The translations under genes and the position numbers were made by a program. A stretch of DNA of 64,000 nt from Bacillota bacterium. GTDB lineage: Bacteria; Bacillota; Dethiobacteria; DTU022. Shown here piece after piece: positions 5,555 to 23,689 of this stretch (position 1 is the stretch's first letter; every line of letters begins with the position of its first letter). The notes below the pieces were generated by a model. It was not told the DNA's origin. It worked only from the letters and a program-made list of their open reading frames with translations, and did not search any database. Where the stretch lies: the NCBI GenBank assembly GCA_029782095.1, contig JAKOVL010000190.1, forward strand, positions 1 through 64,000, read 5' to 3'.

Positions 5555-7000
5555 ATGAAAGATAAAATCTACAACGTGGAGGAGAAGTTCCAGGATTACC
5601 TTTCCGATGAATCGAGGCTGCAGGGCCAGGCTGACGGCATCTTTTTCCCTGAAAGTGAGGCCGACATCCAAGAATTTGCCGCCTGGGCCTACGAGAGCAG
5701 GGCTGCCGCAACGATCCAGGGCGGAAGAACGGGCCTCGCCGGGGGCGCCGTGCCGGCGGGAGGCTGCCTGCTCAACCTCTCCCGGATGAGCCGCACGGGC
5801 GAGCTGGCCCGGGGCAGGGGCGGCGAATTTTACCTGGAGGTGGAGCCCGGCTTATCCCTGCTCCAATTGAGACAGGAACTTAAGCGGCTGAAAAGCGAAG
5901 TGGAGCTCTTTTGGCCCCCGGACCCCACTGAGACCGCGGCCTCAGTGGGAGGAATCGCCTCCTGCGGCGCCAGGGGTATCTGTGCCCCGCGCTATGGGAA
6001 TACGGGCCGGCATATTGCGAGAGCCCGGATCGTCCTCGCCGGCGGCCGGGTCATGGAGCTGCGCCGGGGCGAGCAGTTCATTTCTCTCGCCGGGAAAAAG
6101 ATTGACCTGCTGGATCTCTTTATCGGCGGCGAGGGCATCTTCGGCGTCCTCAGCAGGCTCACCCTGCAGCTGCAGCCCAGGCCGCGGCACACCTGGGGCT
6201 TTATGTTCTTCCTCGAGCAGAAGGAGGCGCTCTATGCCTTTGTCGAAAACCTGAAAAAGAACTGGCGCGAACTGATGCCGCTCGGCCTGGCGGCCGCCGA
6301 ATACATGGACCGCTCAACCCTGCAATTGATGGAAGAATATAAAGAGGCGGCGGAGAGCTTAAAAGCGGCGCCGCCCCTGGATCCCGGGGTTTTGGCGGCG
6401 GTCTACCTGGAAGCCCACTGCAGCAGGGAAGAGGCCGCCCTGGAAATTGCCGACAGGCTGGTGGATATGGCCGTGGAGTCGAGCTGCGACCCCGACCGGG
6501 CCTGGGCGGTGACCGGCGAAAACGACGTGGAAAAGATGAGAGACTTCCGCCATGCCGCGGCGACAGCGGTAAATTATCACCTGGCCAGGGCCAGGCTCGC
6601 AGAGCCGCGCCTGACGGGGCTGGAAGTTTACCTGGAAGCGGATTGTGAAGATTTTGCCGGCGTGGTGGAAAAATATAAAGCCGGCTGTGCCGGCGCGGGA
6701 CTGAAGGCGGCCATTTACGGCCATATCCTGGGAAACCGGCTCCGGGTCAACCTGCTGCCGGAAAGCTATGCCCAGTATGAGGAGGGACGGCGGCTCATTA
6801 AACGGTGGGCGCTTGAGTTGGCGGGACGCCGGGGCAAGGTGGACCGGCAGCACGGCATCGGTAAACTGAAAAGGGAGCTCTTCCTGCAGATGGCGCCCCG
6901 CGAATACCTGGAAGATTTGCAAAGGCTCAAGGAGCACTACGATCCTGCGGGGCTGTGGAACCGGGGCACCCTCCTGCCGCCTCCCTGTGAAAGCCGCTAG
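5555..7000 (+). CDS. FAD-binding oxidoreductase, GlcD-like (D-2-hydroxyacid dehydrogenase type)
   Basis: IQGGRTGLAGGAVP FAD motif, DRQHGIGKLKRELF and YDPAGLWNRGTLL C-terminal motifs. Confidence 0.88.
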   Translation: MKDKIYNVEEKFQDYLSDESRLQGQADGIFFPESEADIQEFAAWAYESRAAATIQGGRTGLAGGAVPAGGCLLNLSRMSRTGELARGRGGEFYLEVEPGLSLLQLRQELKRLKSEVELFWPPDPTETAASVGGIASCGARGICAPRYGNTGRHIARARIVLAGGRVMELRRGEQFISLAGKKIDLLDLFIGGEGIFGVLSRLTLQLQPRPRHTWGFMFFLEQKEALYAFVENLKKNWRELMPLGLAAAEYMDRSTLQLMEEYKEAAESLKAAPPLDPGVLAAVYLEAHCSREEAALEIADRLVDMAVESSCDPDRAWAVTGENDVEKMRDFRHAAATAVNYHLARARLAEPRLTGLEVYLEADCEDFAGVVEKYKAGCAGAGLKAAIYGHILGNRLRVNLLPESYAQYEEGRRLIKRWALELAGRRGKVDRQHGIGKLKRELFLQMAPREYLEDLQRLKEHYDPAGLWNRGTLLPPPCESR

Positions 7001-8016
7001 CGCAGCGTAAAGCCATATTTAAGGGGATCAGCCGCGTCGATGATGAGCTGGCCCATGCCGGTCAAGAAGGCTCTCCCCTTCACCTGGGGCAGAATGGCCG
7101 GAAAGTGGCCTACCTTGGTCTCCCCCATCACCGAGCCTTCAAAAATCGCCCCGGTAATGCTTTCATGGTAAAAAAGATCACCCCTGCCCAGCGCACCCCG
7201 TGCATAGAGGGCTGCCATGCGGGCGCAGGTTCCCGTCCCGCAGGGGGAGCGATCGACCATGGCATGCCCGAGGACAACCAGGCTTTTATGGGTATCGCCG
7301 GAAAACTGCGGCTCCTTAACAAAGAGGATATCTTCAACAAAATTGATATGGGGCTTTTCGGGATGGACGACGGAAAGATTCTGGTTGATCTCTTCCCGTA
7401 TGGCCAGCCCGCAGCGAATGAAGTCGGGGATAGATTCCTTGGAATGCTTCAACCCCAGCTGGTCCATCTCCACGATCACAAAAAAATTGCCGCCGAAAGC
7501 GAGATCCACTAAAATCTCGCCGCCGGGCAGATGAACCGGCACCTCACTCCGGTAAAGAAAGGAAGGCACTCCCTTCAGGGTAGCTTCGCCGGCCCTCCCA
7601 TTCTTTACCTCCACCTCAACTCTAACTAGGCCCGCGCCAGTTTCCAGGATCACGGCGGTGAGCGGCTCTTTCACCGGCACCAGGCCCAGTTCTACGGCAA
7701 TGGTGGCGATGGCCATGGCCCCATGCCCGCACATGTTGTTATAAAAAGCGCCGTCAATAAAGATGACGCCCAGATCCGCCTCGGGATGGCAGGGATCCAC
7801 AGCCACGGCGCCGTACATATCATCATGGCCCCGGGGCTCCAGCAAGGCGGCAGTGCGGACAAAATCATATTTTTTCATCATGTATTCGCGTTTTTCCAGC
7901 AGCGTCTTCCCTTTAAGCTGCGGGCCGCGCATAATGAGCCGCAAGGGCTCGCCGCCCACGTGGGCATCGACGTAGTTTAGAATATGCTTGCCCATTATCC
8001 CGCCTCCCGCGACCAT
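6997..8016 (-). CDS. Proline racemase-family protein
   Basis: DAHVGGEPLR, NMCGHGAMA and DRSPCGTGTCARMA; both catalytic Cys positions occupied. Confidence 0.92.
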   Translation of the reverse strand: MVAGGGIMGKHILNYVDAHVGGEPLRLIMRGPQLKGKTLLEKREYMMKKYDFVRTAALLEPRGHDDMYGAVAVDPCHPEADLGVIFIDGAFYNNMCGHGAMAIATIAVELGLVPVKEPLTAVILETGAGLVRVEVEVKNGRAGEATLKGVPSFLYRSEVPVHLPGGEILVDLAFGGNFFVIVEMDQLGLKHSKESIPDFIRCGLAIREEINQNLSVVHPEKPHINFVEDILFVKEPQFSGDTHKSLVVLGHAMVDRSPCGTGTCARMAALYARGALGRGDLFYHESITGAIFEGSVMGETKVGHFPAILPQVKGRAFLTGMGQLIIDAADPLKYGFTLR

Positions 8017-8040
8017 GATAGTTCCAGGATTGTCTTCCCC

Positions 8041-9252
8041 TTATTCCCTGCCGGCAGCTCCATAGTAGGCCCGGTAAAAAATGGAGAGCATCTGTGCTTC
8101 ATCGGGAACGCGGGGATTGGTGCAAAGATTGGCCTTCTCCTCCATTGATTCCCGGGCCAGCAGGGGCAGATCCTCTTCGGGGATGTTTAGCTCCTGCAGC
8201 GTCCGGGGCAGGCCCAGATCGCCGATCAGCCTCCGCACGGCCAGGGGCGCCGCCTCTGCGGCGGCAAAAAGATCCATCCCGGCAATATCGACGCCTAAAG
8301 CTGCGGCAATATCCCGGTAAAGCTCCGGGCAGGCCATCAAGTTAAATTCCATCACTGCCGGCAGCATTATGGCAGTGGCCAGGCCATGGCTCACCGCGAA
8401 GTGGGCGCCCAGGGGATGGCTGCAGGCATGCACCGCGCCGAGGCCGGCATAATCAAAGCAAAGCCCCCCGAACATGCTGGCCACCAGCATGTTGGACCGG
8501 GCCTCGAGATTTTGCGGCTGGGCCACCGCCTTGCGCAGCCATTGGCCAATCATGGCCGTCCCCTTCAACGCAAGGGCCTGGGCAAAGGGGTCCGTGCCGG
8601 TGGAGGTGTACGCTTCAATCACGTTGGTCAGCGCATCCATTCCCGTCTCCGCCGTAACCCTGGGCGGCAGTCCCAGAGTTAGCTCGGGATCGAGCAGGGC
8701 AAAGCGGGGCCAGAGCTGCGGCCCCTCCAGGACAACCTTCTTCTTCCTGGAAGGGTCGGAGATGACCGCGTAGGGCGAAACCTCGGCCCCTGTTCCGGCC
8801 GTAGTGGGGATGGCGATATAGGGGGGACAGCTTTTTTCGATCTTCCTCCCCCCCCGCCGGTAGTCAATGGCGCTGCCGCCATGGGCCGCCACTACCACGG
8901 CGGCCTTGACCGTATCGATGACGCTGCCGCCTCCCACGGCTACAAAGAAAGTGTCATCGCAATTCCCCCTGGCCAGGGCGGCAACGCCGTCGCAGACCTC
9001 ACCGCAGGGGTCCGGCTCCACCCCGGTAAAGAGGGTTGCCCGCAGGCCGGCTCCCTCTAAAGAGGCCATAATGGGCTCTAAAAGACCGGCCCGGGCAATC
9101 CCGGGGTCGCTGACAACTATGGCTTTCCTTCTCTTTAGCGACGCCGCCTTCTCGTGGACTCTCTGAGAGATGCCGCAGCCAAATTCCACCCAGGCGGGGT
9201 AGCTAAAGCCAAATTGCCTGGTGCTTAGAATCAAAGGACTCCACTCCAACAA
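8041..9252 (-). CDS. Iron-containing alcohol dehydrogenase
   Basis: FVAVGGGSVIDTVKA, IPTTAGTGAEVSPYAVI, GLGAVHACSHPLGAHFAVSHGLA motifs. Confidence 0.94.
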   Translation of the reverse strand: MLEWSPLILSTRQFGFSYPAWVEFGCGISQRVHEKAASLKRRKAIVVSDPGIARAGLLEPIMASLEGAGLRATLFTGVEPDPCGEVCDGVAALARGNCDDTFFVAVGGGSVIDTVKAAVVVAAHGGSAIDYRRGGRKIEKSCPPYIAIPTTAGTGAEVSPYAVISDPSRKKKVVLEGPQLWPRFALLDPELTLGLPPRVTAETGMDALTNVIEAYTSTGTDPFAQALALKGTAMIGQWLRKAVAQPQNLEARSNMLVASMFGGLCFDYAGLGAVHACSHPLGAHFAVSHGLATAIMLPAVMEFNLMACPELYRDIAAALGVDIAGMDLFAAAEAAPLAVRRLIGDLGLPRTLQELNIPEEDLPLLARESMEEKANLCTNPRVPDEAQMLSIFYRAYYGAAGRE

Positions 9253-9262
9253 TTCAGATCAA

Positions 9263-9928
9263 TCACTTAAGGCTTTCCATACCATATTTCCTCTGGACAA
9301 TCTTTTCCAGCCAGCCCAGCAAGCGGTCGAGCAAAACCGTGGTCACCGCCAGCAGAATGGTCCCCGCAACGAGCATGCCGTCGTTAAAGGTGCGCATGCC
9401 GACCAGAATGATGGTGCCCATGCCGGCTGCGCCGATAAAAACGGCGTAGGTGGCCACGGAAAAATTCATCACTATGGCCGTGCGTATGCCGGCAAAGATC
9501 ACCGGAAAGGCCAGGGGCAGCTCCACCCTGAAAAGGAGCTGGAGCCTATTGGCGCCCATGCCGATGGCCGCCTCTTTAACCGCTGGAGAGACATTCTCAA
9601 TACCCACACAGGCATTCCGGATTACCGGCAGAATACCATAAATGGTCAGAGCAATTAAGGCCGGCTTTAAGCCAATACCCATCAGCGGGATGAGAAAGCC
9701 AAAAAGCCCCAGTATGGGAATGGTGTAAAGAACGCCGATAAAGCCGAGTACAGGATCACGCAAAGACCGATGGCGTGAAATGAGAATACCGATGGGTATA
9801 CCAAGAACAATCACGATGCAACTGGCCAAGACTACCAGCTTAACGTGTGATCCGAGCATGGAGATCCAGAAATCGCTCTTGCTAACAATATAGTTCCATA
9901 CATTTGCCCACAGAAAGTTGCTCTTCAC
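9263..9928 (-). CDS. Betaine/choline-type ABC transporter permease (OpuCB/YehW-like)
   Basis: Hydrophobic; LPLAFPVIFAGIRTAIVMN EAA-like loop; adjacent to ATPase. Confidence 0.9.
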   Translation of the reverse strand: MKSNFLWANVWNYIVSKSDFWISMLGSHVKLVVLASCIVIVLGIPIGILISRHRSLRDPVLGFIGVLYTIPILGLFGFLIPLMGIGLKPALIALTIYGILPVIRNACVGIENVSPAVKEAAIGMGANRLQLLFRVELPLAFPVIFAGIRTAIVMNFSVATYAVFIGAAGMGTIILVGMRTFNDGMLVAGTILLAVTTVLLDRLLGWLEKIVQRKYGMESLK

Positions 9929-9946
9929 AAAACATTAATACCTCCC

Positions 9947-11041
9947 CTAGCCGGCTAAAAGGGATGCGCAGGATTGAAAAGAGACGATTCCCAAAAAGCA
10001 GCCTTCTTCGGTAACCACGGGCAGCCAGCCCCGGCTGCCCCAGAGCATCTCCTCGATGGCCTTTTTCAAGGAGTCGCCCGGGAGGCAGGAAGAAGATAGG
10101 GGTTGAACTTTCTCCATGTCAATTTTTTCGCGCCCTTTCATCTCTGCCAGCGAAATGTAGCCCAAACATTGCCGATGATCGTCCACCACAAAGGCGTATT
10201 CCCAGCCTTTGAAGGAGGAATCGGCGGGATCTACAACGGCTCCCTCCTTGACGACAGGAAGATCGCGGATTAAGGCCTGGGCTACAGGAATTGTATCGAG
10301 GGCGCTGAATACGGCCCCTTGACCGACAAAACTCCGGATAAACTCGTCCCTCTCCTTGACAATATCCATGGCCGTGCCGATGGTTACAAGCTTGCCCCCG
10401 CGCATGATGCCGATGCGGCTGCCCATCTTGAAAGCCTCTTGGATATCATGGGTGACAAAGACTATGGTTTTCTTGATTGTTTCCTGCAGGCGCAGCAGCT
10501 CATTCTGCAGCTGTTCCCTGGTTACCGGGTCCACTGCCCCAAAGGGTTCGTCCATCAACAATATCTCCGGATCTGCCGCCAGGGCGCGGGCTACGCCGAC
10601 GCGCTGCTGCTGGCCGCCGCTCAGTTCCCGGGGATAGCGGTCCAGGTACGAAACCGGCAGCCCCACTGTTTCAATGAGTTCCATGGCTCGCTCCCGCTGC
10701 ATCTTTTTGTCGCATTTTTTCAGCTGCAGGACAAAGGCAATGTTGTCCCGAATGGTCAGGTGCGGCAGTAAACCAATATATTGGATCACGTAACCGATGG
10801 AGCGACGGAGCTCGACCGTATCGAGCTCCGTCACATCCTTCCCTCGCACGAGTATGCGCCCTGAAGTATGGGGAACGAGCTGGTTAATCATTTTCAAAGT
10901 GGTCGTTTTACCGCATCCAGAAGGACCAATGAGGACAAAGATCTCCCCCTGGTTAACCTGGAAGCTAACCCCGTCTACCACTTTGTCTTCGCCATAGAAT
11001 TTGCTCACATTTTGGAGCTCTACTTCTATGCTGCCTGTCAT
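9947..11041 (-). CDS. Betaine-type ABC transporter ATP-binding protein with C-terminal CBS-like region (OpuCA/ProV-like)
   Basis: Walker A GPSGCGKTT, signature LSGGQQQRVGVARAL, Walker B ILLMDEPFGAVD. Confidence 0.94.
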   Translation of the reverse strand: MTGSIEVELQNVSKFYGEDKVVDGVSFQVNQGEIFVLIGPSGCGKTTTLKMINQLVPHTSGRILVRGKDVTELDTVELRRSIGYVIQYIGLLPHLTIRDNIAFVLQLKKCDKKMQRERAMELIETVGLPVSYLDRYPRELSGGQQQRVGVARALAADPEILLMDEPFGAVDPVTREQLQNELLRLQETIKKTIVFVTHDIQEAFKMGSRIGIMRGGKLVTIGTAMDIVKERDEFIRSFVGQGAVFSALDTIPVAQALIRDLPVVKEGAVVDPADSSFKGWEYAFVVDDHRQCLGYISLAEMKGREKIDMEKVQPLSSSCLPGDSLKKAIEEMLWGSRGWLPVVTEEGCFLGIVSFQSCASLLAG

Positions 11042-11060
11042 GATTAAACCTCTCCTCGTT

Positions 11061-11978
11061 TTAGATAAGCCCCCGTGACTTCAGGAATTCTTCTGCCACA
11101 TCAGCGGGATCCTGGTTTTCCACTTCCACCTTGAAGTTCAAATCGATCATGGTCTCTTCGTCAATGGAATTGAACAGCGGCTTGAGAGCTTCTTCCACTT
11201 CGGGATGCTTCTCCAAGATCTCGGTGCGGATCACATACATGGCATCGTACGGCGGGAAGAAGCTCTTATCGTCTTCCAATACGACAAACTGGTATTCTTT
11301 GAGCCGGCCGTCCGTGGAGAAGCAGGTGGTCACATGGCCGTGCCCTTCGGCCAGGGCGTCGTAGAAGAAGGCGGTGTCCACAACTTTTTGCTGCATATCA
11401 ATGCCGTAAGTCTCCTGCAGTCCCAGGTAAACATCGGGCCGTTCAAAGGTGGTGGAGTCGCCGACGAAAATTAAATCATTGTGGCCGGCCAGGTCGGAAA
11501 GGGTTTTTATACCCAGTTCATCAGAGACCTCCTGGGGCATGGCAATGGCGAAGGTGTTCTGGAAGCCCAGGGGATCGAGGCAGGTGATGTTGAACTTCTC
11601 CTGGTAAGCCGCCTTTGTTTTCTCAAAGATCTCCTGGCGGTCTTGAATGACCTCTCCTTCGAGGACCACCATCCAGGCTGTACCCGTGTACTCGGGGTAG
11701 AGATCAATTTGTCCCTCCACCAGGGCCGGGTGCAGCATCTCTGTTGCGCCCATGCCGATCTTGCTGATATCTACTTCCAGATCGGTTTTCGCTTCGATTA
11801 ACAGTGCCGCCATGTGCGCAAGAGTTAAGCTCTCGGCAAACTGCTTGCTGGCAATGACCACCTTGCCCGCGGTCTCCTCCGATCCTCCCCCCCCACAGCC
11901 AACTGCTCCAAACATTGCTGCAACCAAGGCCACACAAAGCAACAAACAGGTCAACCTACGCTTCTGTAACACCGACAA
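11061..11978 (-). CDS. Betaine-type ABC transporter substrate-binding lipoprotein (OpuCC/OsmF-like)
   Basis: Lipobox ...FGAVGC, KVVIASKQFAESLTLAHMAALLIE, DLYPEYTGTAW motifs. Confidence 0.93.
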   Translation of the reverse strand: MSVLQKRRLTCLLLCVALVAAMFGAVGCGGGGSEETAGKVVIASKQFAESLTLAHMAALLIEAKTDLEVDISKIGMGATEMLHPALVEGQIDLYPEYTGTAWMVVLEGEVIQDRQEIFEKTKAAYQEKFNITCLDPLGFQNTFAIAMPQEVSDELGIKTLSDLAGHNDLIFVGDSTTFERPDVYLGLQETYGIDMQQKVVDTAFFYDALAEGHGHVTTCFSTDGRLKEYQFVVLEDDKSFFPPYDAMYVIRTEILEKHPEVEEALKPLFNSIDEETMIDLNFKVEVENQDPADVAEEFLKSRGLI

Positions 11979-12004
11979 AAACCTCCTTTTATTTTTTACG
12001 GGGT

Positions 12005-12658
12005 TTACCCGCGAACCCCCATCTTTAAGCTGGCTTTATGCTCCAGGACGCCCAGGAGCTTATCCACAAGGACGGCCAGCGCGGAAACGGGAATGGTTCC
12101 CGCCAGGATCATGCGGTTATCCATCATGGAAATACCGGTAAAGATCAGGTTGCCCAGCCCTCCCGCGGCAACTAGGGCGCCCATGGTCGTAATCCCCACG
12201 GTGAGGACGGCAACGGTGCGAATGCCGGCCATGATCACGGGAAAAGCCATGGGAAGCTCAACGCGGAAGAGAAGCTGGCTTGACGTAGCGCCCATCCCTA
12301 AGGCTGCCTCCTTGGCCGCCGGATCTACGCCGAGAATTCCGGCGCAGGTATTCCTTAAAACGGGCAGCCATGAATAGATCGTTAGAGCCACGATCGTCGG
12401 CAGCCAGCCCAATCCAAGGAAGGGGAGCAGGAAGCCCAGTATGGCCAGCGAAGGGATGGTATAGAGCATTCCCGCGATATCGATGACGTAATTGCTGATT
12501 TTCGGGCGCCTGGAAATAAATACGCCCAGCGGTACCGCAGTAAGGGTGCCTGCCAGCACGCCGGCCAGTGAGATCCAGGTATGCTGCAGGGTAAGCTCGG
12601 CCACCTGCCCCCTTATCTCCCAAAAATATGCGAAGAAAGATACTATGCTTTCAATCAA
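12005..12658 (-). CDS. Betaine-type ABC transporter permease (second permease)
   Basis: Paralogous to 9263..9928; LPMAFPVIMAGIRTVAVLTVGITTMGALVAAGGLG. Confidence 0.9.
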   Translation of the reverse strand: MIESIVSFFAYFWEIRGQVAELTLQHTWISLAGVLAGTLTAVPLGVFISRRPKISNYVIDIAGMLYTIPSLAILGFLLPFLGLGWLPTIVALTIYSWLPVLRNTCAGILGVDPAAKEAALGMGATSSQLLFRVELPMAFPVIMAGIRTVAVLTVGITTMGALVAAGGLGNLIFTGISMMDNRMILAGTIPVSALAVLVDKLLGVLEHKASLKMGVRG

Positions 12659-12754
12659 CGCCCCTTTTAAGCCTCCTTTTTATGCTTGCTCCAAGCGCAT
12701 GGCCGGCTCTGCTGCAGGGCCCGGCGAGGAGTTTTCTCCGGACCCGGGCCTCAT

Positions 12755-13606
12755 TTACTTTTTGAACTCCTTAAACATCTTTTCAAACTCTTCCATGGGC
12801 TCCACCACATGGTAAGCGTGTTCATCAGAGGGGAAGATGCCTTCTTTCACTTCGTGAACATAGGTCTTGATGGCGTTTATTTCTATCTCGGCCACGTTGG
12901 CATACTGCTTTACAAATTTGGGCGTAAAAGCCTGGAACATCCCCAGCATATCGCCGCAGATGAGCAGCTGCCCATCTGCCGGCCCCGCCCCGATGCCGTA
13001 CACCGGTATTTCCAGGAGATCGCAGATAAATGCCGTGACCTCCGGGGGGACAGCTTCCACAAGCAGCGCAAAAGCGCCCGCCTCCTGCACCGCCAGGGCG
13101 TCCTTGATTAAAGCGCGGGCGTTCTTCACATCACGCCCCTGGGCTTTAAAACCGCCCAGCTGGCCCGAACTCTGGGGGGTTAACCCAATATGGCCCATGA
13201 CCGGTATGCCGGCATCAACGATGGCCCTGATCCGGGAGGTTACCCGCACGCCGCCCTCCAGCTTGATCGAATCCACTGCCGCTTCCTTGATCAGGCGGCC
13301 CGCATTAAATACGGCCTCTTCATCAGAAACCTGGTAAGACATAAAGGGCATGTCCCCCACAACCCAGGTGTTTGGCGCCCCGCGGCGCACCGCCTTGCAG
13401 TGGGAAAGGCATTCTTCCATGGTTACCGGGTTCGTTGATTTATAGCCAAGCACAACCATGCCCAGGGAATCGCCCACCAGGATCATGTCTACACCGGCCT
13501 GCTCGGCAAACGAGGCCATGGGATAATCGTAGGCGGTGATCCAGGCCACCTGCTGCTTCTCTTTTTTCATCCTGATGAAATCTAGAATCGTTTTTTTCCT
13601 GGCCAT
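12755..13606 (-). CDS. Ketopantoate hydroxymethyltransferase (PanB) family protein
   Basis: VGDSLGMVVLGYKSTNPVTMEE, GDMPFMSYQ, KLEGG, GHIGLTPQS, YGIGAG motifs; start at 13606 chosen from AAGGAGGC RBS. Confidence 0.92.
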   Translation of the reverse strand: MARKKTILDFIRMKKEKQQVAWITAYDYPMASFAEQAGVDMILVGDSLGMVVLGYKSTNPVTMEECLSHCKAVRRGAPNTWVVGDMPFMSYQVSDEEAVFNAGRLIKEAAVDSIKLEGGVRVTSRIRAIVDAGIPVMGHIGLTPQSSGQLGGFKAQGRDVKNARALIKDALAVQEAGAFALLVEAVPPEVTAFICDLLEIPVYGIGAGPADGQLLICGDMLGMFQAFTPKFVKQYANVAEIEINAIKTYVHEVKEGIFPSDEHAYHVVEPMEEFEKMFKEFKK

Positions 13607-13635
13607 TAAGCTGCCTCCTTCTTTCTGTTGATTGC

Positions 13636-15027
13636 TCAATACAGGTGCTGCGCCAAAATATTCTCTTGCTCAGGAGTAAGCGGGGGCGGTTCATAATCTT
13701 GAAGCCTCCCGTTCAATATCTCCTGAGCCTGCTGTTCCAATGTCCGGGAACCGCCCTGCTCCCAGCTGGAGTAGCTCTCGCGCGAAAGCAGCGGCGGTAT
13801 AGAGAGCTCGCTCCGGTAATGCAAAGCGGTATGCTCTTCATCCAGGTACATGCCGCCCGGGCCAACTCTCTCGATAACCTCTACAGCCAGCTTCTGCTCA
13901 TCCACGTCAAAGCCGGCGACAAATCTTTCCGCCACAGCCACGGTAGCCTCGTCGATAATAAACTTTTCGAAGCTAACCGTGTTAAAAGAATCAATAATCC
14001 CACAGGAGTGCAGGATGAAATCTGCGCCGGAAATCATCGTGCTCAGCATCAGCATCATGGATTCTAAACCGGCCTGCATATCCGGCAGCTTTGCATCCGT
14101 TAACGTGCCGCCGGTGCGGCAGGGCAGCCCGTAGTATTTGGCCAGCGCTGCAGTGGCCATAGCCATGAGCGCAGCTTCCGGTGAACCTATGGCCGGCGCA
14201 GCGTAGCGCATATCACAGGAGACAGAGGTGCTGCCGTATATAACCGGCAGTCCGGGCTTGCAAAGCTGGCTGAACACAATCCCGGCCAGCTGTTGGGCAT
14301 TATCCACAACCACGGTCCCGGCCAGCGTTGCGGGGCTGCTGAACCCCGGCTGGGAGCATGAGGCAAACAAAAGGGGCTGGCCGGCATGGGCATACTCCAT
14401 AATGCGCTCAATCATCCCCCGGTCATAGGTTAACGGTGAGATGGGGCTGATAAAGCCCAGCAACCGGTTTTCTGACAGGCCTCCGTAAAAATCGCGCACC
14501 AGCTTAAAGCACTCCCTGGTTTCTCCCTCCCCCACGTTCATCCCCGCCAGGGGCTTCGTGGAATATTTAAGGGCCGCCGCCACCTGGAACAATCTCCGCC
14601 TGCTCCCGGCAATATCCTGGGGTTCAACGACGATATAATTGGCCACCCCCAGCACGGGGCTGTCCTGGGTCAGCTTCATTAAATCGATAAAGTCTTGCCT
14701 TGAAGCCGGCCTTTTCTGGGAACCCCTTTTCACAAATACCGGGCCGGAAGCTGGCGCATAGACGGGCCGCCCGCCGCCGACAACAACATGGTCCCGGCTC
14801 TCGCGGCCATAAAGCGTAAAGCTCTTCGGTGTGCTTTCCAGGGCTCGCTCCAGGAGCTTCTGATCAATAAAGACCTTATCGCCTTCGATTTTAGCGCCGC
14901 TCTTTTTGAATATTTCCAGCGCCTGCCCGTGAGCAAACCTCACTCCGGTCCTGGAGAGCACTTTTAGCGTCGCTTTATGAAGATTCTGAATCTCTTTTGG
15001 GGACAGGCAGCTGCCCGAGACCCTCAT
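13636..15027 (-). CDS. Trimethylamine methyltransferase (MttB) family protein, non-pyrrolysine type
   Basis: VLSRTGVRF N-terminus, GGTLTDAKLPDMQAGLESMMLMLSTMISGADFILHSCG, ERVGPGGMYLDEEHT; no in-frame stop across the family. Confidence 0.9.
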   Translation of the reverse strand: MRVSGSCLSPKEIQNLHKATLKVLSRTGVRFAHGQALEIFKKSGAKIEGDKVFIDQKLLERALESTPKSFTLYGRESRDHVVVGGGRPVYAPASGPVFVKRGSQKRPASRQDFIDLMKLTQDSPVLGVANYIVVEPQDIAGSRRRLFQVAAALKYSTKPLAGMNVGEGETRECFKLVRDFYGGLSENRLLGFISPISPLTYDRGMIERIMEYAHAGQPLLFASCSQPGFSSPATLAGTVVVDNAQQLAGIVFSQLCKPGLPVIYGSTSVSCDMRYAAPAIGSPEAALMAMATAALAKYYGLPCRTGGTLTDAKLPDMQAGLESMMLMLSTMISGADFILHSCGIIDSFNTVSFEKFIIDEATVAVAERFVAGFDVDEQKLAVEVIERVGPGGMYLDEEHTALHYRSELSIPPLLSRESYSSWEQGGSRTLEQQAQEILNGRLQDYEPPPLTPEQENILAQHLY

Positions 15028-15045
15028 CTGTCCTCACCTTTCCGC

Positions 15046-15837
15046 TTAAACATGGCCGTAGTAATCTCGATGGGCAATAACCGAATAGGCATAATCCAAA
15101 AGGGTGCCCCAGCTAAACACGGGCAGGTCCGTCTCCCGCTGTATGGCCCGGGCAAAAGGCTGCATCCCCGTGCATTCCAGCAAGAGCGCACCAATCGTCG
15201 GATGCTTTTCAATAAACCTCTTGCAGCAGGAGATCATCTGCTTTTCAGCCTTATCGTAATAGGCTTCCGGCTTCTCGGGCCTCACATGGGGATTCCAGAG
15301 GTTGTCAAATTCGCTGACGCCGTACTCATCCTGGGCCCCGGCGATGACATAGTTGCTGTCGGGATCAATGCCCACGTTGATGAGATGCTCCCTGGATAAA
15401 AATTGTTTCTGGACGCAGACGATGCCCACGCTTTTCTGCGGCCCGATGACCTGCTGAATAAACGGCACCTGCAGCAGGCTGGACATGAATACGGGCACAT
15501 CGACAACAGCCCGCACATCCTGCTGGAAAAAGGCAAAATATCCACATTCAGCGGCAATGGCCCGGCAGCCATACCTCTCCAATCTTTTTGCTGCGGCAAT
15601 GACCGCCTCCCGGCATTGCGCCGGATTATTGTCATAGACCAGCGTCTTATTGGTTACGCCCTCCGCTATTTCATACTGTATGGGATAGGGATAGGCGCTC
15701 GGGTTTCGCACGTCCCCCGGAAATCCCGGATAGACATCATCAAGCAGGATTATCCCCAGGCCCATGCCGTAGCAGACATGATTCTTGCGCGCTTTGATAT
15801 GATTTATTCCCGGATCACGGCTTTGCCAAAAGATCAT
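15046..15837 (-). CDS. Aspartate/glutamate racemase-like protein
   Basis: AAECGYFAFFQ and LLLECTGMQPFARAIQ carry the paired Cys expected in the Asp/Glu/hydantoin racemase superfamily. Confidence 0.75.
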   Translation of the reverse strand: MIFWQSRDPGINHIKARKNHVCYGMGLGIILLDDVYPGFPGDVRNPSAYPYPIQYEIAEGVTNKTLVYDNNPAQCREAVIAAAKRLERYGCRAIAAECGYFAFFQQDVRAVVDVPVFMSSLLQVPFIQQVIGPQKSVGIVCVQKQFLSREHLINVGIDPDSNYVIAGAQDEYGVSEFDNLWNPHVRPEKPEAYYDKAEKQMISCCKRFIEKHPTIGALLLECTGMQPFARAIQRETDLPVFSWGTLLDYAYSVIAHRDYYGHV

Positions 15838-15873
15838 GGCTTCCTCCCCCTCAAAATTTTTTTGGCGATGCTC

Positions 15874-17298
15874 TTAAAGGCCCAGCTTCTTCTCCCATTC
15901 ATCGAGGAGCTCTGCCTGGCCCTGTTCGAGGGCGGGGCCGGCATCGCTTTCCAGTATTCCCTTGATCTTCTGCCTGATTTTTTCTCCTATCGCTGAGCCC
16001 GGCTGAGTAATTTTTTCGCGGCTAAAAATTTCAGGATACCAGACCCGCCTGAAATTTTCCAGGGTGTGCATCTGGTCAATGTAGTGGCCTCCCGGGCCCA
16101 CCGTTTCCACAAGATCGAGGACAAAATCATCTTCCCCGGCTTCGATCCCCCGGGTATAGGACTTCAACGATTCGATAATCTCGTTGGCCAGCACCACCAT
16201 TTCCGGCGAAACATTATTGCAATGATCCAGCACCCCCACATCATGGACCAGGTTGGCCTTGCTCAGCATGGTGGATAAAATCTGGAAGGTGACTTCGCTT
16301 ACAGATTGTTCATCCACCGCCTTGGCATCCGAGCATCCCGCGGTCCCGTAGAAGGGCAGGCCATAGTAGGCCGCCAGGTCAGCCATGGCCGCAACGCAAA
16401 GATGGAATTCCGGGGCGGCGTAGCTGCCGATAGTGGTCCGCATGTCCAGGATGGAGGGCATGGCTCCGTAGATAAAGGGAGCGCCTTCGCTGACCAGCTG
16501 GGAGAGAACCAGGCCGAATAAAATTTCGGCGTTGCACTGGGCCAGGGTTGTGGCCAGGTTCATTGGCGCAGTGCCGCCCATCATGCAATAGGGCATATAG
16601 ATTAAGGGAATGCGATTTTCAGCGCTAATATAAGCCTTCTCCGTGCTGTCAGACGGATGGGTCAGCGGCGGGATGGGTTCGCAGTAATAGAAAATAAAGG
16701 GTTTCTCCTGCAGCTTCTCCATGCCGCCGGCAAAATCTGCCGCAATGTTAAGGCAGTCTTTGAGGGAATCAACGCTGTTGGAGGAGAAATTAATGGTCTT
16801 GTTAAAATTTCTGAGCGTTTCGATAAATGTGCTCTGCGTTTGCACCCTGGGGTCAACATCTGCAGTCATCCCCACGGAGAGAACAAAGTGGATGTTGGGC
16901 AGGGCATCGGCAATGCGGCACATGGTCGCCACATCTTTTTTCAAAAACTTTCTTACCCCGCCCGCGAAGGGATCGACAATCTCGAGCTGATCCGCATGGG
17001 TACCGAAGTAGACCTGGTTGTTCTCGTTATCAACAACCATGGTTTCTTCCCCGTTCCGGTTATAGAGCACCAGCTTCTTCGGAGCGCTCTCTATGGCCTT
17101 TGCCACCATGTCGGCGCTGATGCGCATCAACCCATCCTTGCCGATGCGGGCTCCGTGGGCGGTGAGGATGTCCACGGCACGCTCACCGCCCACCTTCATC
17201 CCTATATTTTCCATAATGAATAGGGTTTTCTCGTGTATTTTTTTGATCTTCTCATCATCGAGGACCCGAAACTCAATGTTGCGCACAATCTGGCTCAC
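15874..17298 (-). CDS. Trimethylamine methyltransferase (MttB) family protein, non-pyrrolysine type (second copy)
   Basis: IMENIGMKVGG N-terminus, GTAGCSDAKAVDEQSVSEVTFQILSTMLSKANLVHDVGVLDH, ETVGPGGHYIDQMHT. Confidence 0.9.
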   Translation of the reverse strand: MSQIVRNIEFRVLDDEKIKKIHEKTLFIMENIGMKVGGERAVDILTAHGARIGKDGLMRISADMVAKAIESAPKKLVLYNRNGEETMVVDNENNQVYFGTHADQLEIVDPFAGGVRKFLKKDVATMCRIADALPNIHFVLSVGMTADVDPRVQTQSTFIETLRNFNKTINFSSNSVDSLKDCLNIAADFAGGMEKLQEKPFIFYYCEPIPPLTHPSDSTEKAYISAENRIPLIYMPYCMMGGTAPMNLATTLAQCNAEILFGLVLSQLVSEGAPFIYGAMPSILDMRTTIGSYAAPEFHLCVAAMADLAAYYGLPFYGTAGCSDAKAVDEQSVSEVTFQILSTMLSKANLVHDVGVLDHCNNVSPEMVVLANEIIESLKSYTRGIEAGEDDFVLDLVETVGPGGHYIDQMHTLENFRRVWYPEIFSREKITQPGSAIGEKIRQKIKGILESDAGPALEQGQAELLDEWEKKLGL

Positions 17299-17369
17299 TT
17301 TCTTCCTATACCCCCAAACATCTCCGCACCCTGGCGGGAGAGAAAGCCTGGGTATCCCGACCGGGAACC

Positions 17370-18587
17370 TTACTTCCTTTCCCCGAAGCGCAGATAATTG
17401 TTCAACTGCTCTTTATCCATACCGCCAATGCCCAGGTAGTCAAGAGAGTACCCCGTGGAGTAAAAATCCCTCTGCAAGATGGCCGAGGCAATGTTGATCA
17501 TGGAGTCGATCACCGGCGTTTTTACCCCAAAGACTTTCCCCAGTTGATGGTACACGTTGCAGCCAACCGGGATATCCTCGGTGATATACCGATTCTCTAC
17601 GGTGAAGGGGCCGGTGCCGTACTGGATATAGTCATGCTGGTCAAAGGGTATTTTGTAATCTTTGCCCATGTACTCCTGGCCCAGGATGCTTTCCCTGGAG
17701 AAGAAGTCTTCTTCGTCATATTCCTGAACACCCACGCCGATCGCCTTGGCCACGGCGCAGACCTCCTGGTAGAAGGCATACTGGACCCGGGCAATGGAAG
17801 GACAGTAGGCATGAGAATAGATGCTGAATTCATACTTGTCTTTCCCGTAGATCACACCCCAGTTTTCCATGGTGCCGAGGCCGAGAATGGTGCCCGGACA
17901 GTGCAGAACGGGGTTCACATTGCTAAAGCCGATATCGAGGACCGTATCGCCCGCCACAGGCCCGTCGCCATTGGTGACCGCGTCCATGGAAGGGAGATAG
18001 CGGGAGCTTTCGATAAAGGCAGGGGTATCGCAATCGGGCATGGCGGCGCCGCGCAGGGTAATGGCCCGATAATAGACCCTGATTTGAGGCAAAATCACTC
18101 CACCCTTGGTCACCACCCGGCTGCCGTAGGTGGAGCTGGACCATCCACCCACGATAACATCTTTATCGCAGCCCGCTTCCCGCATCATTTTGCGCAGCAA
18201 GAGGGAGCCGTAATTGTCGGGGAAAATGTGGATTACCTGCCCATCTTCCAGGGCGGGAATTAATTTTTCAAAGAAAGGCCTGTGCCCGAGGGCAGGCGTA
18301 GCCACGACAATAATCCCGGCGCCTTTTACTGCTTCGGCTACATCTTCGGTTACCAATTCCATTACTGCAGTTCCGCTGCGTTCAAAGCCATATAAGTTTA
18401 GCTGATCTCCAAAAAATTTGATGCCTGATTCTTTGACTCCAAAAAGTGTTTTTTCCGCGAAAGGCGGCAGGTCGCAGAGGCGCACCCTGGCGCCGCCCAA
18501 GGCACAATCGCCGGCAATAGCTTTGGCTACGGCCCCTCCCCCGAGCACGGCAATGGGTTTTTCCTTCAAGTAGTCCAACTTTTTCAT
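17370..18587 (-). CDS. NAD/NADP octopine/nopaline dehydrogenase-family protein
   Basis: IAVLGGGAVAKAIAGDCALGGARVRLCD Rossmann N-terminus; C-terminal HQLGKVFGVKTPVIDSMINIASAI. Confidence 0.85.
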   Translation of the reverse strand: MKKLDYLKEKPIAVLGGGAVAKAIAGDCALGGARVRLCDLPPFAEKTLFGVKESGIKFFGDQLNLYGFERSGTAVMELVTEDVAEAVKGAGIIVVATPALGHRPFFEKLIPALEDGQVIHIFPDNYGSLLLRKMMREAGCDKDVIVGGWSSSTYGSRVVTKGGVILPQIRVYYRAITLRGAAMPDCDTPAFIESSRYLPSMDAVTNGDGPVAGDTVLDIGFSNVNPVLHCPGTILGLGTMENWGVIYGKDKYEFSIYSHAYCPSIARVQYAFYQEVCAVAKAIGVGVQEYDEEDFFSRESILGQEYMGKDYKIPFDQHDYIQYGTGPFTVENRYITEDIPVGCNVYHQLGKVFGVKTPVIDSMINIASAILQRDFYSTGYSLDYLGIGGMDKEQLNNYLRFGERK

Positions 18588-18667: not shown

Positions 18668-18683
18668 TGCAATATCTGTGCCA
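18668..18683 (-). promoter_or_regulatory. Sigma-54 promoter candidate TGGCACAGATATTGCA directed at the 18587->6997 operon
   Basis: Reverse complement of tgcaatatctgtgcca; GG and GC separated by exactly 10 nt; about 80 nt upstream of the operon's first start codon; divergent EBP gene adjacent. Confidence 0.85.
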
Positions 18684-18880: not shown

Positions 18881-18977
18881 GCAATTTATTTTGCATGCAA
18901 TATTTTTTGCAGAGTCCGGCAAGGGCAGGATTTATTAGGGTTGCGGCGAATTGATCATAAAACGCAAAAATATTTGC
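18881..18977. promoter_or_regulatory. Candidate enhancer cluster: three GCAA-[AT]6-TTGC dyads (18881-18894, 18897-18910, 18964-18977)
   Basis: GCAATTTATTTTGC, GCAATATTTTTTGC, GCAAAAATATTTGC; about 200-290 bp from the -24 element and directly upstream of the EBP gene. Confidence 0.65.
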
Positions 18978-18996: not shown

Positions 18997-20430
18997 ATGC
19001 CTAATGAAACCCTGCAAAGGAATGAATTAGAAAAAATTCGCCGGGAAAACGAGCTGCTGACCAGCGCATTAAATATTATCGAAGAAGGTATTCACATTGT
19101 TGACAGCAGCGGCAAAACCTTTTTTTATTCAAAATCCCTGGAGAAGATCGAGAATACCAGGGCGGAGAATGTCCTGGGGAAGCATATCACGGAAGCATAC
19201 CAGCTGGATGAAGACAGCAGCATCCTTTTAAAAGTGTTAAAAACGGGGAAGCCGGTGAAGAATCATCACACCACTTATTTTACTAAAAAAGGGAAAAAGA
19301 TTGATATAATCACCAACACTTTTCCCATCAGCGCAAATGGCGCCGTCATCGGGGCGGTCTCGGTCAACAGCGACATCACCAACAAAAAGCAGCTGGTCGA
19401 TACCTTGATCCAGCTGCAAAAGCAGCTTTATTCCAGCCATACCCGCAACGGCACGCAGTACTCCTTTGAAGATATTATCGGAGAGAGCGCCGCCATACAG
19501 GAGACCGTAGATCATGCCCAGCGTGTTGCCGTGAACATGTCGCCGGTGCTGATTTTCGGTGAAACGGGAACGGGAAAAGAACTTTTCGCCCAAAGCCTCC
19601 ATAATTACAGCCTTCGCGCCAAGGGCCCCTTCGTGGCCGTGAACTGCGCCGCCATTCCGGCCACTCTGCTGGAGAGCATTCTTTTTGGAACAGAAAAGGG
19701 TGCTTTTACCGGGGCCGAAGATAAGCCCGGCCTGTTTGAAGAGGCGGACAAGGGCACCCTTTTCCTCGATGAAATCAGCTCCATGGATGTCTCCCTGCAG
19801 ACCAAGCTGCTGCGGGTGCTGGAATCGAAAACGGTGCGGCGCTTGGGCGGGAAATCGGACATCCGCGTGAATCCGCGGATTTTTAGCGCCATCAACACCG
19901 ATCCCCTGGAAGCGATTAAGCAGGGCAAGCTGCGCCAGGATCTCTATTACCGCCTGGCCGTGGTTACGCTGACCATCCCGCCCCTGCGCAAGCGCATGGA
20001 AGATCTGCCCCTGCTGGTGCGCCACTTTATCAATAAATCAAACAAGATCATGTATAAACAGGTTAAAGATGTCACGCCGGAAGTAATGGCCATTTTCCAG
20101 CGGCACAACTGGCCCGGGAATGTGCGCGAACTGCAGCATGCCGTGGAGCACGCCATGAACTTTGCTGAAGAAGATGCCGACTACATTGAGCCGAGACACA
20201 TCCCGGCCCATTTGCGGCAAAAATACCAGGAACCCGGCTACGAGCATGATTATGATTACAAAAGCAGCCGGGAGAAACAGAACCTCAAGCTGCTGCTGCA
20301 AAGAATTGAAAGAAAAATTATTGTGGAGACGCTGAACAGCAACGACCATAACATTACCCGCACAGCCAAGGCCCTGGGTATTTCCAGGCAAAATCTCCAG
20401 CAGCGGATAAAACGCCTCAATATAAAGTAG
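18997..20430 (+). CDS. Sigma-54-dependent transcriptional activator (PAS - AAA+ - Fis HTH)
   Basis: PAS-like N-terminus, [39 protein letters not shown]-terminal [28 protein letters not shown]. Confidence 0.96.
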
Positions 20431-20609
20431 CGGCGCGAACAAGCCGGCCTGGCAGGAGAGGCAGGATTGCCGGCGCCGGCAGGGGCCCAGGAGCACATGG
20501 CCAAGCTGAACGTCCCATCCCCATGAAAGAAGCCATTTTAGTTAAACCTGGGCGGATCTATAAGGTATAATGAAAAAAAGCTGCCAAATCTGTGCACTGG
20601 AGGTGCAGT

Positions 20610-22055
20610 ATGCCACACTGGGTTTACCTGATCCTGGCAGGAGTTGTTATCATAATCGCTGTGATCCTGGGCCGGACCGCTGCCTTTCGTTCCCGGCGCT
20701 ACGCGGTGGAACCGCAGCGCGGCCTCAAGATCGATGTTAACCGGGCGGCGGAGCGCCTGTCGGGGGCGGTTCAACTGCCCACAATTACTGTATCAGATCC
20801 GGAGAAAGGGGATTGGGCCCCCTTTGAACAGTTTATCCGCTACCTGGAGCAGGCCTATCCCTCCGCCCATGCGGTTCTGGAGCGGGAGATCGTCAACAAT
20901 TACAGCCTCCTTTACCGCTGGAAGGGGCTTGATCAGAGCCTGAAACCGGTCCTTTTCCTGGCCCATATTGATGTAGTTCCCGTGGAAGAGGGCACAGAGC
21001 AGGACTGGCGCTACCCGCCCTTCAGCGGCGCCCTGGCCGAAAGCTTTGTCTGGGGCCGGGGGACGATGGATATGAAAAGCCAGCTCATCTCTGTGCTGGA
21101 GGCGGTGGAGTATCTTGCGGCGGAGGGCTTCACCCCGGCCCGCGATTTTTACCTTGCTTTTGGCCATGACGAAGAGACGCGCGGCGCAGAGGGGGCGGTG
21201 AAACTGTCGGAGCTGCTGCAATCCCGCGGGCTTTCCTTTGAATATATCCTGGACGAAGGGGGAGCCGTCACCGTGGGAGCCATGCCCGGCGTAGAGCGCC
21301 CCATCGCCCTGGTGGGCATCGCCGAGAAAGGCTACGCCGATATCCGGATTACCGCTCTAGGCGAGGCCGGCCACTCCTCCATACCCCCCAGGCATACCGC
21401 GGCCGGAATGATCGGGCGGGCGGTGGCTGCCCTGGAAAAACGGCAGCGCCCGGCCCGAATTAGCCCCTACCTGAAAGAGACGCTGGCCCACATCGGCCCG
21501 GAAATGGGCTTCGGGCTGCGGCTTATCCTGGCCAACCTGTGGCTCTTCGGCCCCCTGTTCAAGCTTGCCTTTAAATCTTCCCGGGCGGGCAACGCGCTGC
21601 TGCGCACCACTACAGCGGTGACGGTCCTGGAAGGAGGCAGCAAGCCCAACGTCCTGCCCAAGAAAGCCAGCGCGGTAATCAATTACCGCATCGCCCCGGG
21701 AGAAACCGTCCAGGAGCTGCTGGATCATGTGCGCAGGGTCGTGGGAGATGAGATCGAAGTGGAAGCAATCCAGGCCAACGAGCCCTCCCGGATTTCGCCG
21801 GTGGACGGCTCCGGGTTCAAGGCCATAGAGCAGGCCATCTACGCCGTCTTCCCCGAAGCGGTAACGGTGCCCTACATCGTCATGGCCGGCACCGATGCCA
21901 TCCGCTATGAACCGCTCTGCGATCAAATTTACCGCTTTACCCCCATACTCGTCTCCGCGGAAGACCTGGAGCGGATCCACGGTACCAATGAGCGGGTCTC
22001 GTTGGAGAATATTGAACGGGGCATCCGCTTTTATATCGAACTTTTTAAAAAGTAA
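20610..22055 (+). CDS. M20-family metallopeptidase (carboxypeptidase S-like), N-terminal membrane anchor
   Basis: LAHIDVVPVEEG, GRGTMDMKSQL, FGHDEETRGAEGA; ATG at 20610 follows GGAGGT. Confidence 0.93.
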   Translation: MPHWVYLILAGVVIIIAVILGRTAAFRSRRYAVEPQRGLKIDVNRAAERLSGAVQLPTITVSDPEKGDWAPFEQFIRYLEQAYPSAHAVLEREIVNNYSLLYRWKGLDQSLKPVLFLAHIDVVPVEEGTEQDWRYPPFSGALAESFVWGRGTMDMKSQLISVLEAVEYLAAEGFTPARDFYLAFGHDEETRGAEGAVKLSELLQSRGLSFEYILDEGGAVTVGAMPGVERPIALVGIAEKGYADIRITALGEAGHSSIPPRHTAAGMIGRAVAALEKRQRPARISPYLKETLAHIGPEMGFGLRLILANLWLFGPLFKLAFKSSRAGNALLRTTTAVTVLEGGSKPNVLPKKASAVINYRIAPGETVQELLDHVRRVVGDEIEVEAIQANEPSRISPVDGSGFKAIEQAIYAVFPEAVTVPYIVMAGTDAIRYEPLCDQIYRFTPILVSAEDLERIHGTNERVSLENIERGIRFYIELFKK

Positions 22056-22295
22056 GCCCTCTCTCTTCCCGGTGACAGGAAACAAATTTTCTACTATTTG
22101 GGGCGGACGAACACAGTCCGCCCCTCCCTGTTCCCCACTCCCTGTTTAGCCCGGAGATCCGCTGCGCTCGGGATGACAGCAAGGCGAGGCAGGCCTGTGG
22201 CCATATCCACCGGCTGACGAGGCAGGAACAGGACTGCAGAATCTTGAATATATTTTTTGCCTGTTGGCAGGTAAAGTGGAAGGGATGGGATTTAT

Positions 22296-23021
22296 TTGAG
22301 AGATTTTAACCTCAACAGCATTTTTTTGTTCATCACCGCCGGAGTGATAATCCTTTTTGTGATTGCCCAGTCATTTTTCTTTCTGCGCCGGGCCTGGCGC
22401 CGGGCCAGGGAGCTGGGGATCGAGGTGCGGGTATTGAGAAGAGTGGTCCGGAGCAGCGCCGCCTTTACCGTGGCCCCGGCCATTGCCATTATCCTGGGTG
22501 TAATCACCCTCTCCAGGTTCCTGGGCCTGCCCCTGCCCTGGCTGAGGCTGAGCGTTCTGGGCGCCCTGACCTACGAGCTGCCGGCAGCTGCTTCCGCAGC
22601 GGACGCCCTCGGCGTCTCCGTATCCGAAGGGGTGGCCAACCCGCAGGCATACACTACCATCGCCTGGGTCATGACCCTGGGAATCATGTCCGGGCTGATC
22701 ATCGTCACACTCTTTCTGAAGAAGATCCAGGGCGGCATCCAGAGCTTGAAAAAGCGGGATACCAAATGGGGAGATATTTTCCTCACCGCCCTCTTCATGG
22801 GCATGATCTCGGCCTTCCTGGGGATGATCTTTGCCGATATCACCGCCGGCCTCAGGGGCTGGATTCCCGTCTTTGTCATGGCGGTCTCTTCCCTGCTCAT
22901 GCTGGTCTGCGGCTTTTTCGTGAAAGTCCTCAAGGTCAAATGGATGGAAGATTATGCCCTGCCCATCAGCATGCTGGGGGCCATGGCCCTCTCCATTCCC
23001 ATTACCAGGCTTCTTGGATAG
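22296..23021 (+). CDS. DUF5058-like integral membrane protein (probable TTG start)
   Basis: Multiple TM segments; family recalled from sequence style, not searched. Confidence 0.7.
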   Translation: MRDFNLNSIFLFITAGVIILFVIAQSFFFLRRAWRRARELGIEVRVLRRVVRSSAAFTVAPAIAIILGVITLSRFLGLPLPWLRLSVLGALTYELPAAASAADALGVSVSEGVANPQAYTTIAWVMTLGIMSGLIIVTLFLKKIQGGIQSLKKRDTKWGDIFLTALFMGMISAFLGMIFADITAGLRGWIPVFVMAVSSLLMLVCGFFVKVLKVKWMEDYALPISMLGAMALSIPITRLLG

Positions 23022-23032
23022 GAGGAGGAAAA

Positions 23033-23689
23033 ATGAAATCATCTTACAGTGAAAAGGTCCATACCTGGGGCAGAATCTGGTGTTCACTGGCCATGGTCAT
23101 GTTTATGCTGTTCCCGGCAGCGGCAAGCATATACTACAGCGCCTGGCCCGACGGGATGGCGCTGCTTAAAGGGCTGATGGGGGTGGCGCCCATCTTCTGG
23201 ACGGTGGGAGCAATCGAGGCTTTCACCTATTCGCCCATGCTCGGTTCAGGCGGCTCCTACCTCGGTTTTGTCACCGGCAACCTGGCCAATCTCAAACTCC
23301 CCTGCGCCCTGAACGCCATGGAGATTGCTGGGGTTAAACCGGGCACCGAGGAAGGCGAGTTGATCTCCACCATAGCCATCGCCGTCTCCTCCATCGTCAC
23401 CACCCTGATCATTTTTGCCGGGGTGCTCCTCCTATCCCGGCTGCAGCCCATCCTGGAATCGGAGCTGCTGGCCCCGGCCTTTGCCAATATCCTGCCCGCT
23501 CTCTTTGGCGCCCTGGCCGTGGTCTTTATCGCGAAAAACTGGAAAATAGCCCTGGCCCCCCTCCTGTTCATGCTCATCCTCTTTATCTCGGTGCCGTCCC
23601 TGGCCGGATCCGTCAGTGTTCTGGTGCCGGTGGGGGCGATTATCGCCATAGCCTCAGCCAGGGTATTGTATAAAAAAGGTTACCTGTAA
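23033..23689 (+). CDS. Integral membrane protein, partner of the preceding DUF5058-like gene
   Basis: Multiple TM segments; ATG after GGAGGAGGAAAA; follows the upstream gene by 11 nt. Confidence 0.75.
   Translation: MKSSYSEKVHTWGRIWCSLAMVMFMLFPAAASIYYSAWPDGMALLKGLMGVAPIFWTVGAIEAFTYSPMLGSGGSYLGFVTGNLANLKLPCALNAMEIAGVKPGTEEGELISTIAIAVSSIVTTLIIFAGVLLLSRLQPILESELLAPAFANILPALFGALAVVFIAKNWKIALAPLLFMLILFISVPSLAGSVSVLVPVGAIIAIASARVLYKKGYL

Follow-up and report, generated by a model that had tools for sequence, protein, structure and literature searches.

Which sequences does the sigma-54 activator encoded in this 64-kb stretch of DNA (hereafter, the window) recognize, and which genes do they serve? 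The activator gene is separated from a divergent operon by an intergenic region that holds three GCAA-[AT]6-TTGC dyads (Table 1). From sequence comparisons, we propose that these dyads very probably constitute the enhancer, or upstream activator sequence, of the adjacent activator, through which it would switch on the divergent operon.

Table 1. Features of the locus and of two relatives in which the activator gene and the operon are separated.
Feature	Position	Strand	Sequence	Remarks
sigma-54 activator (EBP)	18997-20430	+		PF13426, PF00158, PF25601, PF02954
sigma-54 -24/-12 element	18668-18683	-	TGGCACAGATATTGCA	divergent operon promoter; full consensus
Dyad site 1	18881-18894		GCAATTTATTTTGC	promoter-proximal half of tandem pair; exact match
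Linker of tandem pair, 2 nt	18895-18896		AT	part of TTGCATGCAA at 18891-18900
Dyad site 2	18897-18910		GCAATATTTTTTGC	exact match; conserved in orthologs
Dyad site 3	18964-18977		GCAAAAATATTTGC	exact match; 19 bp before activator ATG (18997)
Octopine/nopaline-type (opine) dehydrogenase	17370-18587	-		first operon gene; PF02317, E = 1.5e-33
MttB-family methyltransferase 1	15874-17298	-		PF06253
Asp/Glu/hydantoin racemase-family protein	15046-15837	-		PF01177
MttB-family methyltransferase 2	13636-15027	-		PF06253
PanB-like ketopantoate hydroxymethyltransferase	12755-13639	-		PF02548
Rest of apparent operon	6997-12658	-		betaine-type ABC transporter, iron alcohol dehydrogenase, proline racemase-family protein (Pfam)
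G024 dyads	L147 6959, 7031, 7048			region L147 6934-7215
G014 dyads	L148 958, 1029, 1046			region L148 933-1216

By its Pfam domains, the activator consists of a PAS domain, an AAA+ sigma-54 interaction domain and a Fis-type helix-turn-helix (HTH). The AAA+ domain (PF00158, 216 bits) carries the GAFTGA loop and Walker motifs, with TLFLDE in the translation, and the C-terminal HTH (PF02954) spans residues 435-474; both are features of bacterial enhancer-binding proteins. The best-scoring named family is PrdR (NCBIfam NF041552, E = 2.7e-121). Since the score of 405.7 bits is about half of the equivalog cut-off of 795, we did not assign the protein to PrdR. Two further genes, for an M20 peptidase and a DUF5058 membrane protein (20592-23689), lie 3' of the activator gene and are conserved there in the two nearest relatives (G023 and G012).

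On the other side, the operon (6997-18587) brings together an opine-type dehydrogenase, two MttB paralogs for MttB-type demethylation, PanB, betaine ABC transport and a proline racemase-family protein. The transporter parts are a permease, an OpuAC binding protein, an ATPase and a second permease, and the permease beside PanB is retained in several orthologous loci. Both MttB paralogs belong to the superfamily PF06253, but as the trimethylamine methyltransferase MttB itself (TIGR02369) they score 329 and 338 bits against an equivalog cut-off of 525, and that assignment was rejected. The gene set lets us guess at a proline- or hydroxyproline-type betaine as the substrate. The operon promoter is one of 26 matches to the TGGCACAGATATTGCA type of element in the genome.

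The three dyads of the original prediction are all exact, and GCAAWWWWWWTTGC matches nowhere else in the window; 100 dinucleotide shuffles of the window gave a mean of 0.04 dyads, and none of them reached 3. As predicted, the centres of sites 1 and 2 are 16 nt apart and bridged by a perfect palindrome, and the distance of the cluster from the -24 element, put at about 200-290 bp, was measured as 198 bp for site 1 and 281 bp for site 3, so that the inverted repeats lie upstream of the -24/-12 promoter at a distance suited to looping. Site 3 is indeed located near the activator start, but it does not abut it: it ends before the ATG, just 5' of the ribosome-binding site. The suggested genome scan for a regulon, which we ran as pattern matching over the 2.97-Mb genome, returned 7 strict dyads versus 1 for a reversed-pattern control. 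The 4 matches beyond this locus are inside ORFs (C48:1314; C48:8317, in dnaE; C160:199) or 6 bp past a stop codon (C138:1534). Because the strict motif forms no second intergenic cluster in this genome, the regulon of the activator seems to be this locus.

Further evidence comes from relatives. An orthologous activator (60-92% identity) is present in 14 of 98 same-class genomes, one of the carriers (L052, matching G075) being a Dethiobacter MAG, and the dyads are retained in all 14. The group to which these genomes belong is therefore probably the class Dethiobacteria. Phylogenetic footprinting showed them to be conserved in both position and spacing on a shared plan, in which the sigma-54 element is followed by a tandem pair with a 2-nt linker and then by a single dyad. 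Measured from the beginning of site 1, this single dyad is 82-90 bp away in same-class relatives and 133 bp away in G075. Every ortholog region that holds the operon promoter has a counterpart of the sigma-54 element, and in all 14 of these regions the observed count of exact dyads was reached by at most 1 in 1000 of the region's own shuffles. When the window species is compared with its two nearest relatives, the arms are identical at 24 of 24 positions, the centres at 12 of 18 and the other intergenic bases at 164 of 352. Site 1 is present in all f1 and f6 orthologs with 0-1 mismatch, the 2-nt linker recurs in the best pair of 18 of 18 regions (AT, AC, GT, TT, CT or GC), and the recognition helices of the activator orthologs are alike (SRQ[NHRY]LQ). 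The all-A/T centre of 6 nt describes the window but not the family in general: exact dyads in relatives have centres of 6 nt (n = 20) or 7 nt (n = 19), and these are 89% A/T, compared with 59% over the whole regions. Since the dyads are kept in the same layout in about 15 related bacteria, we regard them as very probable landing sites of the activator, and co-conservation thus supports the original prediction. In particular, loss of the motif where the activator and operon are kept together was looked for and not found, and the tandem pair is found in four genomes of other families as well. Between sites 2 and 3 there is also a GGCAGGA-like block (about 18925-18935), kept in most same-class orthologs with an adjacent activator; a second sigma-54 promoter, for the activator gene, was sought in this block by eye and not found.

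The pair also distinguishes genomes that have the activator from those that do not. Across the 98 same-class genomes, the exact tandem pair was found at 11 places, 10 of which are this enhancer, and the reversed pattern at none. It is thus present in 10 of the 14 genomes with an ortholog versus 1 of the 84 without (Fisher P = 8e-10); the other 4 ortholog-bearing genomes have degenerate pairs with one or two mismatches, and the eleventh pair belongs to G070, a genome without an ortholog. In two other families of the phylum, f35 and f54, four genomes encode activators with 57-62% identity and keep the pair, with GC as linker, upstream of the sigma-54 promoter of the corresponding dehydrogenase (two mismatches in G181, one in G290); the third dyad was not seen in these two more distant families. 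G181 has dyads before two different sigma-54 promoters, the second being that of an MttB gene. A second pair of directly abutting dyads occurs in three f35 genomes before another transcription unit (L173 11936-11963, L175 8045-8072, L176 8107-8134). A sigma-54-like AGGCAT-N5-TGC element, in which AGG replaces TGG, follows at a distance of roughly 100 bp; the case of G446, the first of the three, is weaker. A degenerate pair also precedes an ABC-first operon in G138, whose genome has no ortholog above 47% identity. Farther away, we examined the approximately 500 bp upstream at 17 more distant activator loci and found no dyad at 14 of them. The other three (L022-L024) form a single clade, g5, whose PAS/AAA+/Fis-HTH activators are about 41-42% identical and have the recognition helix KRQSLQYR; their GCAA-N7-TTGC dyads, such as GCAAAATGATTTTGC, precede the activator gene by 110-210 bp. 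These dyads and the related helix suggest that recognition of the GCAA half-site may be common to a wider HTH group.

Several other explanations should be weighed against this one. A short motif with A/T-rich centres might arise from the composition of an A/T-rich intergenic region, but the shuffle controls and the conservation across genomes leave chance a negligible probability. It is improbable, too, that the dyads are bound by another transcription factor or by a related sigma-54 activator encoded elsewhere. The half-sites are short, and the g5 dyads mean that another member of the same HTH group could bind them; against this, the tandem dyads track the activator ortholog over the 98 genomes, they are retained at the operon in genomes whose activator gene is present but lies elsewhere, they were not found at L177, where the operon occurs without an orthologous activator, and the strict motif lacks a second intergenic cluster here. 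The palindrome TTGCATGCAA might be the true site, with the flanking GCAA and TTGC secondary. An AT linker between intact arms does create a perfect 10-bp palindrome, in the window and several further pairs. About half of the pairs, however, have AC, GT, TT, CT or GC as their linker; the palindrome is broken in G027 (TTGCACGCAA) and G075 (TTGCTTGCAA) while the outer arms are intact; and site 3 is a lone GCAA-N6/7-TTGC dyad that lacks such a junction. Given this variation of the linker with the arms kept, we ruled out the palindrome as the primary site, and a primary role for it is highly improbable.

The most serious alternative, although still a somewhat unlikely one, is that site 3, perhaps together with site 2, chiefly controls the activator's own gene and not the operon. 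In the window species, G023 and G012, site 3 is 17-19 bp before the ATG, and site 2 falls between sigma-70-like -35 and -10 hexamers of the activator gene in G022, G010, G016 and G075; negative autoregulation through a shared site has a precedent in SoxR of Bacillus thuringiensis (PMC4941409). A sigma-70-like promoter was sought in the window's intergenic region, however, and not found. Two split loci help to separate the two readings of site 3. In G024 and G014, an alcohol dehydrogenase gene adjoins the operon and the activator ortholog is on another contig, but all three dyads are kept upstream of the operon's sigma-54 element (Table 1), so that the three-site layout is co-conserved in same-class orthologs even at split loci. 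Because site 3 stays with the operon where no activator gene is adjacent, we conclude from these sequences that it is part of the enhancer and not merely autoregulatory. The relocated activator gene of G024 begins shortly after a single dyad (L042 8876-8889, in region L042 8663-8911), and autoregulation therefore remains plausible; this observation covers G024 alone, as the contig with the activator gene of G014 ends before reaching the start of that gene. The autoregulation that had been predicted from the last dyad thus fits the lone dyad of G024 but would not be the sole role of that site. Less certainly, occupancy of sites 2 and 3 might also restrain transcription of the activator gene, giving negative autoregulation.

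The distance between the enhancer and the promoter is more variable than the enhancer itself. The centre of the pair's linker is 70-212 bp from the -24 element across relatives and about 107 bp from it in most same-class genomes, and the same-class offsets from the commonest spacing amount to 10.0, 9.7, 6.9, 4.9, 2.1 and 2.0 turns of 10.5 bp. A periodicity of about 10.5 bp is documented for natural and synthetic sigma-54 enhancers (PMC4740811). A phasing simulation that took a single value from each same-class group returned P = 0.08 for a turn of 10.5 bp and 0.035 for 10.0; with the distant families added, P was 0.55 and 0.015, respectively. Given the weakness of these statistics, and with the f35 genomes out of phase by about half a turn, helical phasing of the enhancer-promoter distance stays only suggestive. 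A stricter version, in which the module is a rigid and obligatory hexamer scaffold, with three dimer sites, two of them held together by the fixed 2-bp linker, centres of 6 or 7 bp and promoter distances changing by whole turns, appears unlikely to us.

We suggest a plausible mechanism for the switch. What the sequences themselves establish is that the dyads exist in a fixed layout, that a sigma-54 promoter is present, and that these elements are inherited together with the activator ortholog and the operon. In the model, one HTH dimer would bind to each dyad. Three dimers on one short stretch could help the AAA+ hexamer to form, by analogy with NorR. A small molecule may act on the PAS domain; a quaternary amine or a product of the operon would be candidates. 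The intervening DNA would then loop so that the hexamer meets sigma-54 RNA polymerase at the -24/-12 element, and opening of the polymerase complex by the hexamer would turn on the opine-dehydrogenase/MttB/PanB/betaine-transport operon.

The closest parallel is a NorR-like three-site enhancer, which is a probable description of this locus by analogy. Both systems have three sites in the intergenic DNA between the activator gene and a sigma-54 operon. The NorR site is GT-N7-AC, unlike the dyads of the window. The three sites that lie between norR and norVW in Escherichia coli are indispensable and act as a scaffold for the hexamer (PMC2941729). NorR differs in having a GAF domain that senses NO and in having further target genes, and the scaffold role in the window is one that we infer. 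SoxR of B. thuringiensis likewise involves a divergent PAS-type sigma-54 activator, a methylamine-type catabolic operon and a shared site, but its site is an 11-bp inverted repeat of other sequence with a 7-bp spacer, and its operon is that of sarcosine oxidase (PMC4941409). As described in the main text of Nie 2019 (PMC6615313), clostridial sigma-54 activators with a Fis-type HTH are encoded beside a single target operon, as here, and usually have several sites each, at 100-250 bp from the promoter, with which the distance of about 90-200 bp in most relatives agrees. The same main text gives TGT/ACA repeats as PrdR's own sites, unlike the window's dyads, and names neither an MttB/opine-dehydrogenase group nor a GCAA-N6/7-TTGC motif. 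A published RocR site was sought for comparison and was not found in our literature search.

An earlier study predicted that sigma-54 controls MttB genes in the class Clostridia (PMC12316311). A switch of this type is ordinary in bacteria; the one proposed here would be new for an operon of the quaternary-amine type. For an uncharacterised activator, our findings supply a concrete candidate recognition sequence and point to one clear target operon, and the split loci reveal which sites serve activation. The conserved enhancer also offers a means of following the regulon through Dethiobacteria-like and related Bacillota.
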